Shown piece after piece: positions 2,715 through 37,039 of a stretch of 45,470 nucleotides of DNA. How positions within the stretch are numbered: position 1 is the first letter of the stretch; each line of letters opens with the position of its first letter. The notes below the pieces were generated by a model that was not told the DNA's origin, did no database searches, and worked only from the letters and a program-made list of their open reading frames with translations. The translations under genes and the position numbers were made by a program. The DNA is from Chromatiales bacterium (GTDB lineage Bacteria; Pseudomonadota; Gammaproteobacteria; SpSt-1174), in NCBI GenBank assembly GCA_014762505.1, contig JABURS010000013.1, forward strand, positions 1 to 45,470, in the 5' to 3' direction.

Positions 2715-2795
2715 GCATAACGTTCCGCTTGAGCCGCGGATTGCCCTGGAGCGCAGCGGAAGGGTAAGCCGTCGGACTCGAAGCGGTGGTTATGC
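2715..2795 (-). other. attC recombination site of the first cassette
   Basis: The minus-strand outer core GCATAAC (2795-2789) and inner core GTTATGC (2721-2715) bound an 81-bp imperfect palindrome. The arms CCGCTTGAG and CTCGAAGCGG pair except for one extra G, the extrahelical base expected of an attC. The stop codon of the gene at 2790-3257 overlaps the outer core. Confidence 0.88.
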
Positions 2796-3257
2796 AAGTT
2801 GCTCATCGCTCACCTGCCAAAACGATATTTGGTATTGAGAATAATCGTCCGCATCGTCTGGCACGAAGAACTCGACTACGCACGGACGCTCCGGAAACTG
2901 CCACTGCAGCTTGGCTTCGTAGATTTCTTTCAAGACAGTGCCAAGCCGAATCAATTTGTCCTTCGAAATATCCTCACAGCTCAAATGCTGAATGTCTTGC
3001 AAGTGCCTGTGGTTCATCACCCACTCAACAGACTTTCGCGTGCTCCCGTCTCGGCCTTCGAAGCCCCTTAACGACGCCTCAGAGAAACCCTTCGGAAGGA
3101 TGTACCCTTCGAATTCTGTGAACTCCGGCCAGAAGATGGCCGCGTAGCCTACAGCAAGAGAAAAGTTGCCGGCGCACCCAACCCAAGACTCAAGGTCAAT
3201 CCCTGAACCGTTGTTCCACGAGCCAAGGTCAGCCTTCATGCTTTCGGGTATATCCAT
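2790..3257 (-). CDS. Hypothetical protein of the attI-proximal cassette
   Basis: A 155-residue soluble protein with ATG start at 3257, only 14 bp from the attI core, so it is the cassette nearest the integrase and probably the best expressed. It is acidic and rich in aromatics, with segments WVGCAGNFSLAVGYAAIFWPEF and VVEFFVPDDADDYSQYQISFWQ. It has no signal peptide or membrane helix. A central stretch, VEWVMNHRHLQDIQHLSC, is probably helical. It resembles small hypothetical proteins often found in cassettes, but I recognise no catalytic motif and assign no function. As the newest position in the array, it may be the most recently inserted cassette. Confidence 0.75.
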   Translation of the reverse strand: MDIPESMKADLGSWNNGSGIDLESWVGCAGNFSLAVGYAAIFWPEFTEFEGYILPKGFSEASLRGFEGRDGSTRKSVEWVMNHRHLQDIQHLSCEDISKDKLIRLGTVLKEIYEAKLQWQFPERPCVVEFFVPDDADDYSQYQISFWQVSDEQLA

Positions 3258-3270
3258 CGCCGTCCCTTAC

Positions 3271-3340
3271 GCATAACTATAATTAGTGGGCCTAAATGAC
3301 CGGTTTAAACCGGTCAAATGGGACCCGTAGCAGCGGAGTA
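3271..3340 (-). other. attI site region (core 3271-3277)
   Basis: The minus strand reads GTTATGC at 3277-3271, the same core as in the attC sites, and the first cassette gene starts 14 bp beyond it. The integrase-proximal side (3278-3340) should hold the integrase-binding sites; it contains AT-rich sequence and the 20-bp palindrome at 3297-3316. The outer limit of attI cannot be fixed from sequence alone. Confidence 0.75.
3297..3316. repeat. Perfect 20-bp palindrome between attI and intI
   Basis: TGACCGGTTTAAACCGGTCA is an exact inverted repeat with no spacer, centred at 3306/3307. It lies 20 bp from the attI core and 26 bp upstream of the predicted intI -35 box. It could be an operator for a dimeric regulator or part of the integrase-binding array. 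Confidence 0.7.
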
Positions 3341-3341
3341 G

Positions 3342-3369
3342 TTGAAAAATCAACCACATAGTGAATAAT
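3342..3369 (+). promoter_or_regulatory. Putative sigma-70 promoter of intI
   Basis: TTGAAA (3342-3347) and AATAAT (3364-3369) are separated by 16 bp and each matches its consensus at five of six bases. Transcription would begin near 3376, leaving a leader of about 35 bases before the ATG. No LexA-type CTGT-N8-ACAG box overlaps it, so SOS control of this integrase is not apparent. Confidence 0.5.
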
Positions 3370-3410
3370 AACCGGACAATCCAGGAGAAATCGGACACAA
3401 GGAGGTGTCT

Positions 3411-4376
3411 ATGGGCCAGCCACGGCTGCTGGACCGTCTGAGAGAGGCGATCCGGGTACGTCATTACAGCATCCGCACCGAGGATGCGTATGTGCAGTGG
3501 GTGCGTCGATTCATCCTGTTCCATGACAAGCGCCATCCTTCGACAATGGGAGCGTCCGAGGTCGAGGCCTTCCTGAGTCATCTGGCCGTAGACAAGCATG
3601 TGTCGGCCTCCACGCAAAATCAAGCGCTCTCCGCCATCCTCTTTCTATACAAGCACGTCCTCGATATGGACCTGCCGTGGCTCTCGGACGTGGTGCGCGC
3701 GAAGCGCCCGGAACGCTTGCCCGTTGTGCTCACACGCCAGGAGATCCAGCGACTGTTCGGCCAGTTGCACGGGGTCAATGGCCTGATCGTTCGGCTGGCG
3801 TATGGCACGGGGATGCGACGGATGGAGGTGTTGCGCCTGCGCGTGCAGGACATCGACTTCGGTTACAACCAGATCACGGTGCGGGCGGGCAAGGGCAACA
3901 AGGACCGCCAGACCATGTTGCCCCGCGCCCTGGCCGGTGAACTCAAGGTTCATCTCACCAAGGTGAAACAGGCGCACGAGTCGGACCTGGCCGAGGGGTT
4001 CGGCACTGTGGCCCTGCCGGATGCGATCGAGCGCAAGTACCCGAATGCGGCCACGGAGTGGCGCTGGCAGTACGTGTTTCCCGCTCCGAAGCGCTCGATC
4101 GACCCACGCTCGGGGTCGGAACGTCGTCATCACTGGTACGAGAAGAACGTTCAGCGCGCACTGAGCCAGGCGGCGCGTGCGGCTGGCATCCACAAGCGCG
4201 TGAGCATGCACGTGATGCGCCACTCGTTCGCGACGCACCTGCTGGATGACGGCTATGACATTCGTACCGTACAGGACCTGCTAGGTCATGCCGATGTGAA
4301 GACCACCATGATCTACACGCACGTTCTGAACCGTGGCGGCCGGGCCGTGTTGAGCCCACTGGACACGCCCCGATAG
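3411..4376 (+). CDS. intI: Integron integrase IntI (tyrosine recombinase)
   Basis: Catalyses attI x attC and attC x attC recombination to insert, excise and shuffle cassettes. The 321-residue protein starts at ATG 3411, four bases after AAGGAGGT; a GTG at 3405 lies inside that ribosome site and is unlikely. Residues 1-95 form the SAM-like N-terminal DNA-binding domain. The catalytic domain follows, with Arg136 ([10 protein letters not shown]), Lys in GKGNKDR, His267 and Arg270 (HVMRHSF), His293 ([10 protein letters not shown]) and nucleophile Tyr302. The insert [20 protein letters not shown] (about residues 202-221) is the extra domain that separates IntI from other tyrosine recombinases and is needed to bind folded single-stranded attC. 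All key residues are intact and the gene appears functional. Confidence 0.96.
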
Positions 4377-5387: not shown

Positions 5388-5987
5388 TCAGCCTGGGCGG
5401 CGGCTGCGCACGCGGATGGCCTCTTCCAGCTCCTGGGCCTCGAGCACGTCGCCGATGGCCTTGATGCTCTCCTTGAGCTCGGGAATGATCACGTCCTCCA
5501 GCGCGCGGGCGCGGCGCTCGGTGCGCTGGTATTCGCGCAGCAGGCGCGTGAGGTTGGCGGTGGTGGCGGCCAGGGCCGCGAGGTCTTCGAGCAGGACGAG
5601 AAACGCCGTCTTGGCGTGCTCGCCCTCGGTGGTGGCGAGGTCGGCGCTGGCCTGGCGCGCGGCCTCGATGTCGAGCCGCGCCTCGGTGAGCGGCACGCCG
5701 AGCAGGCTGCGCCGGTGCTGCCTGAATTCACCGGTGGAATCGGCGGCCGGATAGGCGGCCAGCCCCTCCAGGCCATGACGCTGTACGGCATGGGCCAGCG
5801 CGGTACGGGCATCCTCGCGATGCGCGAGATAGGCGCGACGCTGGCTCTCATAGCGCTTGAGCTGTACGACGATCTCGCTGGCGAGCAGCACGCGCTTCTC
5901 GTCGAGGAAGGCGTGCCCCTCGCGCATCACCCCCTGCTCGTCGCGCAGCTCCAGCAGGGCCGAGCGGGTGGGGATGAGATCGCTCAT
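5388..5987 (-). CDS. ntpD: A/V-type ATPase subunit D (central rotor stalk)
   Basis: Central rotor shaft subunit that carries torque between the membrane c-ring and the A3B3 catalytic head, like gamma in F-type enzymes. The 199-residue protein begins with the family's typical PTRSALLELRDEQGVMREGHAFLDEKRVLL, a long N-terminal coiled coil, and ends with a second long helix (TTANLTRLLREYQRTERRARALEDVIIPELKESIKAIGDVLEAQELEEAIRVR). These antiparallel helices make the shaft. Its ATG overlaps the stop of subunit B (ATGA), which shows translational coupling. It is the last recognised gene of the ATPase cluster. Confidence 0.93.
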   Translation of the reverse strand: MSDLIPTRSALLELRDEQGVMREGHAFLDEKRVLLASEIVVQLKRYESQRRAYLAHREDARTALAHAVQRHGLEGLAAYPAADSTGEFRQHRRSLLGVPLTEARLDIEAARQASADLATTEGEHAKTAFLVLLEDLAALAATTANLTRLLREYQRTERRARALEDVIIPELKESIKAIGDVLEAQELEEAIRVRSRRPG

Positions 5988-7386
5988 CCGCTGCCCTCCC
6001 CGTCGATGTACTGCGCGATCTGCGCGTCGTTGAGACGGTTGAGCGCGGTGCGCGGCAACGCGCGTAGCAGCTCCCAGCCCAGCGCCATGCTCGCCTCCAG
6101 GCTGCGGCGCTCGTCCTGGGCCACGTAGTCGTGCTCGAACCGGTGGGCGAAGGCGAGGAACTGCCGGTCCTCCTCGGCCAGGCCGTCGTCGCCGACCACG
6201 GAGGCCAGCAGGCGCGCCTGCTGCGCGCGGGCATAGGCGGCGTAGAGCTGGTTGGCCAGCGCCGGGTGATCGGGGTGCGTGTAGTCGCCGCCGGTGCCGT
6301 CCTTCATCAGGCGCGACAGGCTCGGCAGCACCTTCACCGGCGGGTACACGCCCTGGCGGTCGAGCTCGCGGTCGATCACGATCTGGCCCTCGGTGATGTA
6401 GCCGGTGAGGTCCGGGATGGGGTGGCCGATGTCGTCGGCGGGCATGGTGAGGATGGGCAGCTGGGTGAGCGTGCCCGCCCGGCCGTGCACGCGCCCGGCG
6501 CGCTCGTAGAGGGTGGCGAGGTCGGAGTACATGTAACCGGGATAGCCCTTGCGGCTCGGGATCTCGCCGAGGCTGGAGGAGACCTCGCGCAGGGCCTCGC
6601 AGTAGTTGGTCATGTCGGTGATGATGACCAGCACGTGCATGCCTTCCTCGAAGGCGAGGTACTCGGCGGCGGTGAGCGCGTAGCGCGGCGTGAGCAGGCG
6701 CTGGGTGCTGGAGTCAGAGGCCAGGTTCAGGAACAGCACGGTGCGTTCCAGTGCCCCGCTCTCCTCCAGGCGATGGCGGAAGTACTCGGCGCTGTCGTAG
6801 GGCAGGCCGATGCCGACGAAGACGATGGCGAAGTCCTCGTCCGAACTGCGCAGCCGCGCGTTGACGGCGATGTCCGCGGCCAGGCGGTCGTGCGGCAGAC
6901 CGCCGCCCGAGAACAGCGGCAGCTTCTGCCCGCGCACCAGGCTGTTCATGATGTCGACGGTGGAGACACCGGTCTCGATGAAGTCGCGCGGCGTCTCGCG
7001 CTGCACGGGGTTGATGGGCAGGCCGCCGATCTCCAGGTGCCGGCGCGCGGCCACCGGCGGGCCGCCGTCGACCACCTCGCCCACGCCGTTGAAGACGCGC
7101 CCGAGCAGGCCGGGACCGACGCCGAACTCCAGCGGCCGGCCGGTGAGGTTGAGGCGGATGTCGTCGAGGTTGAGCCCCATGGTCGGCTCCAGCACCTCCA
7201 CGGTCATGCGTTCCTCGTCGATGCTGACGATGCGCCCGAGGCGCTGGCGGCCGCTCGCATCCTCCACGTACACGGCCTCGTTGAGCGTGACCTCGGCCAG
7301 GCGCTTGAGGAACAGCAGCGGCCCCTCCAGGCGTTCGGCCGCGCCCTCCAGGTAGATGCGACTGCGCAGCTGCGTGATGCGCCCGC

Positions 7387-7390
<4 letters not shown>
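5984..7390 (-). CDS. ntpB: A/V-type ATPase subunit B (non-catalytic head subunit)
   Basis: A 468-residue regulatory head subunit alternating with subunit A in the A3B3 hexamer. The start is MSGRITQLRSRIYLEG (ATG 7390), overlapping the end of subunit A; the open frame upstream of it is an out-of-frame reading of subunit A. The beta-barrel (about residues 1-75), nucleotide-binding-like domain and C-terminal helical domain are all present. The P-loop position reads LFSGGGLPHDRLA, without the GxxxxGKT lysine, as expected for the non-catalytic subunit. Conserved segments include FVGIGLPYDSAEYFR, LVIITDMTNYCEALREVS, YPGYMYSDLATLYERAGR and ITEGQIVIDREL. Length agrees with bacterial B subunits (about 460-470). 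Confidence 0.96.
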
Positions 7391-9131
<1,741 letters not shown>

Positions 9132-9135
<4 letters not shown>

Positions 9136-9755
9136 GTCGCGTCCGTCGTGGCGGTGGTGTCGAGGGCCTCGAGCAGGGCCTCGCGCAGGTGCCGGTCGGC
9201 CAGCAGGGTCGCCAGCGTGGCGTCGAGCACCACGCCCTGTGCGCGGATACGCAGGCCGGCATGCAGGTCGTCGACCTGTTCCACCGCTGCCGTGCGCGCC
9301 CCGCAGGCCGCAATGGCCCGGTCCCAGGCCGCCTCGTGGTGGGCCAGCCAGCAGGGGCCGCCGCGCACCAGGGTCCAGTCCCGCGTCGGCAGCGTGGCGG
9401 CGGCCTGCGCGACCAGGGCCTCGATCCAGCGCGCGGCGGGTCCGGGCTCGGCCCAGCGCGCCAGGAGGGCCATCTCCAGCTGCGACAGGGCCCGGTCGAA
9501 CAGGCCCTGCAGGCGCTGCTGGGCACACTCGCGCTCGGCCGTGTGGATGCGCGCCTCGGCCAGGGCCTGCTCGCGGGCGATGCGCTCGCGCTCGGCCATC
9601 ACCGTCGCGTGCAGTCGGCGGGCGGCGCTGCGCCGCGCCTCCTGCAGCAGCGCCTGCGCCTGCGCGCGGGCGGCCTCGATCAGCCCCTCGCACTCGCGCG
9701 CCTGGCTGGCGCGGATGTGCTCGATGAGCCGGTGCGCGTCCTGTCCCTGGCTCAT
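9132..9755 (-). CDS. ntpE: A/V-type ATPase subunit E-like peripheral stalk protein
   Basis: A 207-residue peripheral stator stalk protein. The N-terminal half is a long charged helix (RLIEHIRASQARECEGLIEA ... RRLHATVMAERERIAREQALAEARI) as in subunit E, and the C-terminal half is a globular domain with strand-forming DWTLVRGG and LHAGLRIRAQGVVLDATLATLL, the usual anchoring fold on top of subunit B. The start at ATG 9755 overlaps the stop of subunit F. Sequence conservation of E is weak, so the call leans on the coiled-coil-plus-globular layout and the position between F and A. Confidence 0.85.
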
Positions 9756-10066
9756 GCCCCCTCCTCGCGCATGCCCAGCCGCCGCCGCACCTCGGCACCG
9801 ACGTCGGGGGCGCCCCCGGTGCCGGCATCGTGGTTGATGGCATCGATCACGACCAGCAGCGGCTTCAGGGCCGCGGCATCCGCGGCGCGGCGACGGGGCT
9901 CCAGCCGCGCCGCCCAGGGCGCGGTGAGGATGAGCACGTCGCACTCGCCGCGCAGCTTCTCGTAACGCGCGGCGAAATCGTCCTCGTCCGGCGTCTCCAC
10001 CTGCGCACCGGCCAGCCGGAAGCCGGCCGCGGTGAGCTCGTCGCCGAGAAAGCCGATGCTCGCCAT
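9752..10066 (-). CDS. ntpF: A/V-type ATPase subunit F
   Basis: A small rotor subunit (104 residues) that binds the central stalk subunit D and modulates activity. The beginning MASIGFLGDELTAAGFRLAGAQV is the family signature (G-D...GFRLAG), and residues about 45-75 give a Rossmann-like strand CDVLILTAPWAARL and LKPLLVVIDAI. Its length matches bacterial F subunits (about 100). The ATG start (10066) is 5 bp after the stop of subunit K, and its own stop overlaps the E start. No unusual feature is seen. Confidence 0.9.
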   Translation of the reverse strand: MASIGFLGDELTAAGFRLAGAQVETPDEDDFAARYEKLRGECDVLILTAPWAARLEPRRRAADAAALKPLLVVIDAINHDAGTGGAPDVGAEVRRRLGMREEGA

Positions 10067-34540: not shown

Positions 34541-37039
34541 TCAGCCACCCTGCAGGACCCGCGCCGGCGAGGTGCGCAGGGCCGCGCGCAGGCCGCCCAC
34601 GCCGGCCAGGACCACGCCGCCGATACCGGCGACGACGGCCACCGGCCAGACCCAGAGGCTGGCCTCGTAGGGCAGCTCGAAGATCTGCCGTGCCAGCACC
34701 AGCCCCACGACCTGCGCCGCCACGGCAGCGAGCAGGCCGGCGAGCAGACCGGTGATGGCGAACTCCATGCCATAGGCCAGGGCGAGCCGGCGCCGGCTCG
34801 CCCCCAGGGTGCGCAGTACCGCGCTCTCGCGCTCGCGCTCACTGCGCGAGGCCTGGATGGTGGCGTAGAGCACCAGCACGCCAGCGGCCAGGGTGAAGAG
34901 GAACACCAGCTCCACCGCCCAGGTCGCACGCTCCATCACGCCGCGCACCTGGTCCATGATGGCGCGCACGTCGAGCACGGTGACGCCCGGGAATTCCTGT
35001 ACCAGCTCCACCGGCAGGCGACGCTGTTCGGGCGCGAGGTAGAAGCTCGTGATGTAGGTGGCCGGGAAGCCGTCGAGGGTGCCGGGCGGGGCCACGACGA
35101 AGAAGTTCACGTTGAAGCTGTCCCAGTTCACGTGGCGCAGGTTGTCGATGCGCCCCGTCACCTGCTCGCCGGCGATGTCGTAGGTGAGTGCGTCGCCCAT
35201 GGCGAGCCCGAGGGTCTCGGCGATGCCCTCCTCCACCGAGAACAGCGGCTGGCCGTGATCGGCCGTATCCCACCAGCGCCCCGCCACCACGAGGTTGTCC
35301 CCGGGCAGGGTCGCCAGCCAGGACAGGTTGAACTCGCGCGTGGCCAGGCGCTGGGCACGCGGGTTCGCGTAGTCGTCCTCGTTCACGGGCTCGCCGTTGA
35401 TGGCCACCAGGCGCCCGCGCAGCATGGGATAGAACGCGGGCGGCGGCAGCTCGCGCTCGGCGAAGAAGTCGCGCAGCCGGTCGAGTTCGTCCGGCTGGAT
35501 GTTGATGAGGAACTGGTTGGGCGCATCGGCCGGCAGGGTGCGCTCCCAGGCGCTCAGCAGGTCCACGCGCACAAAGGCGAGCAGCAGCATGACCATGAGC
35601 CCCAGCCCCAGCGCCGCGATCTGGGTGACGCTCACCGCCCCGCGCCGGCCGACCGCGGCCAGGCCGAAGCGCCACACCATGCCGCGCCCGTGCGGCAGGC
35701 GACGCAGCAGGCGCACCAGTACCAGGGCCACGCCGACCAGTACCAACCCCGCGCCCATGACCCCGGCGAAGACCACCGCGGCCAGCCGCGGGTCCTGTGC
35801 CTGCCACCACAGCAGCAGGCCGATGGCGGCCAGCCCGGCGATGGCCACCGACCAGCCTGTGGGCGGGATGTACCCGACATCGTGACGCAGCACGGCCAGC
35901 GGACGAACGTTGACGGCGCGCAGCACCGCCGGCAGGGCAAAGCCCAGCAGGGCGACCGCACCGAGCAGCACACCCTGCGCCACCGGCGCGGGACCGGCGG
36001 CCGGCAGCGGGCCGACGAACCAGTCGGCCAGCATGGCGGCGATGAGCGACTGCACGCCAAAGCCGATGACTGCGCCGACCAGGCCCGAGAACACCGCGAT
36101 CCACAGCAGGCGCAGGAGGAAGATCGCCAGCAGGCTGCTGCGCTGTGCCCCGAGGCAACGCTCCACGGCAATGGACTCGGCCTCGCGGGCGGCCAGCCCG
36201 CGGGCGGCCACGGCAATGGCGATGCCGGCCAGCAGGGTGCTGATCAGGGCGGCCAGGCCGAGGAAACGCGCGGCGCGGTCCAGCGCCGTCTGCAGCTCGG
36301 GCTGGGCGTTGCGCGTGTCGCGCAGCGAGGCATGCTGCCCCAGTTCGCGTTCGAGCCGCGCCTGCCAGCGGGCGATGTCGGCGTCGGCCCCCGCCAGCAG
36401 CCAGGTATGCCGCACACGGCTCGCGGGCGAGATCAGGCCGGTGGAATCCAGGTCCGCCAGGTTGAGCATGGCCCGCGGGGCGAGCTGGAAGAGATTGGTG
36501 CTGCGGTCGGGCTCGAAGGCGAGTACCGCGCCGATGCGCAGCTCGCGATGGCCGAGGCTGACGACCTCCCCCACCTCGCGCTCGAGCTGTGCGAGCAGGC
36601 GGGCCTCCACCCAGACCTCGCCGGGTGCGGGGCCCTGCCGCACGGCCACGGCCTCGTCGTCGAGGCTGTCCTGGATGCGCAGCTCGCCGCGCAGCGGATA
36701 GCCCTCGCCCACGGCCTTGATCTGGGCCAACATGCTGCGGTCGCCGGCCAGCACCACGCTGGGGAACTCGACGTGCCGGGCGCTGGCCAGACCATCGGCC
36801 TGCGCCGCCTGCAGCAGCGGCTCATCAAAGGGACGCGAGGAGCCGATGGCCAGGTCGCCGCCGAGCACGGTGGCGGCCTGGCGGTCCATGGCCCGCTCCA
36901 CGCGCTCGACGAAGAAGCCCACCGAGGTCATGGCCGCCACCGCCACCACCAGGGCCAGGGCGATGACGCGGGATTCGCGCTGCCGCCAGTCGCGGCGCCA
37001 GGCACGCCAGGCCATGCGCCAGATGGTCGACATCCTCAT
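34541..37039 (-). CDS. ybbP: ABC transporter permease YbbP (FtsX-like)
   Basis: An 832-residue inner-membrane permease with two FtsX-type units. Helices are seen near the N-terminus (VIALALVVAVAAMTSVGFFV), a cluster at about 260-480 (LISTLLAGIAIAVAARGL, FSGLVGAVIGFGVQSLI, AALGLGLMVMLLLAFV), and four at the C-terminal end (VELVFLFTLAAGVLVLYAT ... VAVVAGIGGVVLAGVGGL). Two large periplasmic domains lie between (about 50-240 and 490-690). In E. coli the YbbA-YbbP system is linked to envelope or lipid export, but its substrate is not settled. It overlaps ybbA by 4 bp, and tesA is next to them as in other gammaproteobacteria. Confidence 0.92.
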   Translation of the reverse strand: MRMSTIWRMAWRAWRRDWRQRESRVIALALVVAVAAMTSVGFFVERVERAMDRQAATVLGGDLAIGSSRPFDEPLLQAAQADGLASARHVEFPSVVLAGDRSMLAQIKAVGEGYPLRGELRIQDSLDDEAVAVRQGPAPGEVWVEARLLAQLEREVGEVVSLGHRELRIGAVLAFEPDRSTNLFQLAPRAMLNLADLDSTGLISPASRVRHTWLLAGADADIARWQARLERELGQHASLRDTRNAQPELQTALDRAARFLGLAALISTLLAGIAIAVAARGLAAREAESIAVERCLGAQRSSLLAIFLLRLLWIAVFSGLVGAVIGFGVQSLIAAMLADWFVGPLPAAGPAPVAQGVLLGAVALLGFALPAVLRAVNVRPLAVLRHDVGYIPPTGWSVAIAGLAAIGLLLWWQAQDPRLAAVVFAGVMGAGLVLVGVALVLVRLLRRLPHGRGMVWRFGLAAVGRRGAVSVTQIAALGLGLMVMLLLAFVRVDLLSAWERTLPADAPNQFLINIQPDELDRLRDFFAERELPPPAFYPMLRGRLVAINGEPVNEDDYANPRAQRLATREFNLSWLATLPGDNLVVAGRWWDTADHGQPLFSVEEGIAETLGLAMGDALTYDIAGEQVTGRIDNLRHVNWDSFNVNFFVVAPPGTLDGFPATYITSFYLAPEQRRLPVELVQEFPGVTVLDVRAIMDQVRGVMERATWAVELVFLFTLAAGVLVLYATIQASRSERERESAVLRTLGASRRRLALAYGMEFAITGLLAGLLAAVAAQVVGLVLARQIFELPYEASLWVWPVAVVAGIGGVVLAGVGGLRAALRTSPARVLQGG

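Follow-up and report, generated by a model that had tools for sequence, protein, structure and literature searches.

How integrases choose their attI sites, and how the integrase is restrained in integrons without LexA control, are open questions. At the locus described here, a palindrome is located upstream of the integron integrase gene intI, and a sequence-only reading had offered two alternatives for it: the binding site of a regulator other than LexA, or a part of the integrase-binding array of attI. The window, i.e. the whole analyzed stretch of 45,470 nucleotides, corresponds to contig C13 of genome G000, which starts within an integron cassette array; its features are listed in Table 1. 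In addition to the two domains listed there, IntI showed a weak Pfam match to PF02899 below the cut-off of that family. Minus-strand ORFs of the cassette array at 2149–2718 and 1128–2057 encode a protein with a RibD C-terminal domain (DHFR-like) and one resembling phage Mu F, respectively. The genes read to the right of intI comprise an unclassified ORF and a gene for a DUF488 protein, none of them a recognizable regulator. Within the same flank, minus-strand ORFs at 5984–9843 resemble V/A-type ATPase subunits by eye, which is unusual in a gammaproteobacterium.

Table 1. Features of the attI–intI region and attI copies lacking intI. Positions refer to the window unless a locus is named.
Feature	Position	Strand	Basis or remark
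First gene cassette ORF	2790..3257	-	Without Pfam match
attI core (R box), G^TTATGC on cassette strand; crossover and first-cassette junction	3271..3277	-	Alignment with sister locus
Probable L box of attI simple site, CCACTAAT on cassette strand	3281..3288	-	Position; inverted similarity to R box
38-bp dyad with the palindrome as apex	3288..3325	.	Centre 31.5 nt from AAC; same centre in other integrons
Perfect palindrome TGACCGGTTTAAACCGGTCA, two inverted half-sites AACCGGTCA	3297..3316	.	Sequence
Predicted sigma-70-like intI promoter, TTGAAA-16-AATAAT, 10/12	3342..3369	+	Absent from intI-less copies
IHF-like motif AATCAACCACATA, one mismatch to WATCAANNNNTTR	3348..3360	+	Enrichment in attI sites
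Distal direct repeat 1, AACCGGACA	3370..3378	+	Directly 3' of -10 box; identical in all five window-type copies
Distal direct repeat 2, AATCGGACA	3389..3397	+	19 bp after repeat 1
intI, integron integrase	3411..4376	+	TIGR02249, 482 bits; PF13495 and PF00589
intI-less attI copy	L047 2255-2397 (G000:C42:196754-196896)
intI-less attI copy	L080 1498-1630 (G001:C96)
intI-less attI copy	L146 1074-1200 (G001:C41)

The sequence was confirmed as a perfect palindrome of 20 bp. When up to three mismatches were allowed it matched the window only once, and no match occurred in any of 100 shuffled sequences. From base composition, 0.14 perfect palindromes of at least 20 bp are expected per window and 0.0006 per 200 bp; the window holds two. 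The other one, GGGCGAGCCGGCGCCGGCTCGCCC at 34780–34803, is longer, with 24 bp. A terminator search returned as its sole terminator-like site a weak one on the minus strand (3384–3372), which is outside the palindrome.

The borders of attI were determined by comparison with a sister locus (L033, G001:C46) from the same genus, whose IntI is 89% identical; the closest named relative is a MAG carrying the label Thioalkalivibrio sp. SpSt-1174 (DSBO01000019.1). Identity between window and sister begins at TAAC (window 3274–3277) and the first cassettes leftward of it are unrelated, and the end of attI was therefore placed there. The R box at this cassette junction, GTTATGC, fits the consensus GTTRRRY at six of seven bases, the fifth base being T and not a purine, and the sister has GTTAAAT; the junction itself was placed by the alignment. 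The probable L box is conserved in five attI copies. Judged by this comparison, attI extends over about 123 bp from the crossover to about position 3397 and includes the intI promoter. Hence, the palindrome does not lie between attI and the promoter, as had been assumed; both are inside attI. Aligning the upstream regions of related intI genes, a check proposed with the sequence-only reading, revealed that the palindrome is present in the sister as TGTCCGGTTTAAACCGGACA, with one position altered in both arms such that the perfect dyad is retained. Counting from the first A of AAC (window 3275) as position 0, the half-site AACCGG(A/T)CA occurs in both window and sister at 22 (reverse), 33, 95, and 114.

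Three further attI copies without intI were found, two by searching genomes with the attI stretch (G000:C42:196757-196876 and G001:C96) and one by searching with the palindrome (G001:C41); the IntI search of the genomes gave no match at any of these three places. All three retain the core and L box, the dyad, the IHF-like motif, and both repeats. Between copies linked to intI and copies lacking it, these elements are 72–100% identical, whereas spacers, promoter, and the ribosome-site side reach 22–47%. Averaged by column, identity was 0.85 over the 82 columns of elements and 0.35 over the 54 of spacers (Mann–Whitney P = 1e-14, columns not being independent). The spacing of the elements is identical to the base in four of the five window-type copies; G001:C41 has one additional base. 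The intI promoter is lost in the intI-less copies, with a best match of 7/12 as compared to 10/12. The outer arms of the 38-bp dyad, imperfect in the window, are perfect in G001:C41, and this 38-bp palindrome has a DNA folding energy of -21.8 kcal/mol (z = -9.6); the crossover AAC of the same copy reads AAT. The array adjoining G000:C42 contains a stretch whose ends, GTATAAC...GTTATAC, are paired and attC-like, with ORFs alongside; its fold is not unusual (z = -0.87). Among the five window-type copies alone, covariation did not exceed that of shuffles: one pair had changed on both sides, and 51 to 105 of 500 shuffles reached the observed cell or score values.

The claim that no LexA box is visible upstream of intI was right for the E. 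coli-type box, as CTGTN8ACAG was absent from 3261–3430, i.e. from attI to the ATG, with up to two mismatches allowed. Among 107 intI upstream stretches the exact E. coli box was present in 15 and absent from 92, and 27 contained it with at most one mismatch; Cambray et al. (2011) give LexA sites for 56.6% of 1,103. The genome carries a lexA gene, and exact E. coli boxes occur seven times in it as compared to 10 in the reversed control, hence without enrichment. The host may thus have a divergent LexA box near intI. The palindrome itself was rejected as a disguised LexA box since it has no copies outside attI genome-wide, although the host's own box may differ. Two smaller features were seen close to the promoter. 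A second small dyad, GTTGAAAAATCAAC at 3341–3354, overlies the -35 box and the IHF-like motif; it exists in the two intI-linked copies only, is extended to GTGGTTGAAAAATCAACCAC in the sister, and is missing in the intI-less copies. The sequence GGACACAAGGAGGTGTCT at 3393–3410 could form an RNA hairpin (GACAC/GTGTC) with the ribosome site AAGGAG in its loop, in the sister as well.

A wider survey comprised 369 genomes of the class, 100 of which had an IntI match at 1e-100. A total of 107 distinct intI upstream stretches of at least 80 bases were kept and read, and 36 attI sites were assigned, 35 by a matrix at a 98% null threshold and one cut site (L054) by hand. The 17 matrix seeds came from this set as well and had been selected by eye, some of them once their inverted repeats were known; a few false attI sites are expected. 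For the permutation of arms, 36 sites were used, which include that of the window but neither the sister nor the three intI-less copies. When all possible centres were scanned, symmetry peaked at 31.5, precisely the centre of the palindrome, with a paired fraction of 0.399 as compared to 0.263 for the background (z = 4.8; z = 4.3 without the two window-type sites). Furthermore, the arms covary around this centre: 294 of 756 cells were paired as compared to 226 after right arms had been permuted among sites, and none of 5000 permutations was as high. Without window-type sites (n = 35), the values were 279 of 735 and 218, with none in 20,000. The tests across integrons carry no correction for kinship, although the permutations without the window type hold. 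For the remaining centres between 29.5 and 33.5, P-values ranged from 0.018 to 0.87, and shifts by half a base from 31.5 abolished covariation. Apparently, the dyads of different integrons share a centre and differ in sequence. Inverted repeats between +8 and +70 exceeded those of shuffles with a mean z of 2.9 (16 of 36 sites above 2), as compared to 0.3 (three of 36) in the next block (Wilcoxon P = 1.5e-5, n = 36); several of the 36 sites have no dyad at 31.5. A more distant integron of genome G036 (L025) has the same layout in other letters, with AACGGAGCA at 21 (reverse), 33, 89, and 112. At this locus (G036:C1:247116-248065) the intI frame is broken by stops, and attI still carries a near-perfect long palindrome and repeats. 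The families of G133 and G128 provided one further attI (L149); a search of viral contigs for relatives gave none.

The half-site of the dyad block recurred in the intI-proximal block of the same integron more strongly than in the blocks of others; none of 20,000 permutations reached this value (n = 32, four of the 36 sites being omitted as they lie >260 nt from the intI start). Compared with shuffles of the own sequence, the score was 262 against a mean of 216 and a maximum of 236 in 60 shuffles. The window's own score was modest (z = 1.4). Assembly G001 contains two integrons whose dyads have a common centre and different letters, with the AACCGGACA half-site at C46 and AACACG at C7, the 62% relative, misbinning of MAG contigs being possible. 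The IHF-like motif was scored against WATCAANNNNTTR, which we took to be the IHF consensus. In 40 attI sites, namely the 36, the three intI-less copies, and L149, it was found six times exactly and 21 times with at most one mismatch; shuffles gave means of 0.3 (maximum 4) and 5.9 (maximum 12), respectively. It is located between dyad and repeats, in many attI sites at 73–76. Genes of the IHF/HU family, not told apart, are present in the genome, and the motif of the window is one mismatch away from the consensus.

Four other explanations were weighed against a role of the palindrome within attI. The operator of a non-LexA host regulator controlling intI, as proposed in the sequence-only reading, would agree with a perfect dyad and repeats that flank the promoter, repeat 1 abutting the -10 box. 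However, genome-wide and with up to three mismatches, the palindrome occurs at two places, both of them attI. Further copies at other promoters, expected for the operator of a host regulon, were not found, and a genome-wide search for half-site pairs with a free centre gave 52 matches as compared to 201 in the reversed control. In addition, the palindrome is retained at sites devoid of intI and its promoter, other integrons use the same centre with different letters even within G001, and the genes read to the right of intI offer no candidate regulator. The restriction to attI within a single genome and the different letters in the G001 integrons therefore favor the integron's own protein over a host regulator, and a host operator is improbable. 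Thus, of the two original alternatives, the integrase-binding array gained from the fixed position, the persistence without intI, and the shared half-sites, whereas the other regulator lost ground. An operator for IntI only, selected for auto-repression and of no help to recombination, would fit a repeat 1 that covers the predicted intI transcription start; we regard it as quite improbable, given that palindrome and repeats are kept in copies lacking intI.

The dyad might also be an extruded or single-stranded DNA hairpin, similar to attC and read by its shape instead of by double-stranded half-sites. This reading has to be weighed because it too would yield covariation of the arms, which was indeed found without a common sequence, and the 38-bp palindrome of G001:C41 folds well. 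IntI is known to recognize folded attC, whereas attI is used as double-stranded DNA, according to PMC8946536. Moreover, the 9-mer of the half-site is found again 60–90 bp away, in direct repeats that are unable to pair into the hairpin, and we consider the hairpin rather unlikely. A chance palindrome or functionless relic is hardly credible: although base composition predicts 0.14 of them per window, the sister shows a compensated change and the position across integrons is non-random. By comparison, we have observed a fixed geometry, covarying arms, shared half-sites, and persistence in copies without intI. On these sequence comparisons, we are inclined to regard the palindrome as an accessory, putatively integrase-bound part of the recombination site attI. 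It is probably not the operator of a separate regulator, and it may also allow IntI to repress its own promoter.

If the palindrome is such an accessory element, an IntI dimer or two protomers would bind the inverted half-sites AACCGGTCA beside the L/R crossover site. Additional protomers would occupy the two direct-repeat copies of this half-site, which follow at a distance of about 60 and 80 bp. Bending at the IHF-like motif in between would fold attI such that all bound protomers and the incoming attC hairpin form one complex. In a simple array of equal sites, the outer arms of the dyad would be expected to match the inner half-sites, but their sequences are different. Occupancy of repeat 1 would shut intI off, because this repeat directly follows the -10 box. 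A fixed dyad with private half-site repeats would represent an integrase code readable from sequence, annotation of attI would become possible outside class 1–3 integrons, and a built-in brake on intI would be suggested. A single integrase may act in trans on several attI sites; the copies that look intact and lack intI would mean that it can feed several cassette arrays. Tentatively, and with more doubt than confidence, this can be extended to many gammaproteobacterial chromosomal integrons: they may possess a lambda attP-like attI of about 120 bp with crossover, symmetric element, IHF bend, and distal repeats. Its embedded promoter would make intasome assembly and integrase expression mutually exclusive, and its half-sites would drift with their own integrase, giving each integron a private specificity and allowing one integrase to serve several attI in trans.

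Among known systems, attI1 has L and R boxes as well as the direct repeats DR1 and DR2, and IntI1 binds each of these four elements (PMC12901181). With the letters of attI1 taken from L151, both sites have a simple crossover site and two direct repeats 19 bp apart on its intI side. In attI1, which is about 65 bp long, the repeats adjoin the L box, whereas those of the window begin 95 and 114 nt from AAC (covering 95–122) and lie beyond dyad, IHF-like motif, and promoter; the dyad of the window carries the half-site of the repeats. The attIA site of the Vibrio cholerae chromosomal integron is likewise flanked by cassettes and intI, and the promoter of intI is close to it. It differs from the window attI in that it is described as having no such repeats (PMC8946536) and as controlled by LexA and CRP (PMC3948777). 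In the literature on attI dyads, on IHF with attI, and on IntI autoregulation we identified no report of this layout; the direct repeats of attI1 are its known relative, and the combination of a fixed-position dyad with distal repeats was not found described. In the intasome of lambda attP, a core-type site and distal direct-repeat sites are separated by an IHF motif, and Int has a separate arm-binding domain. No such domain was detected in the window IntI by Pfam. The window attI resembles attP in its core-type site and its distal direct repeats, and may do so in the IHF-like motif between them.
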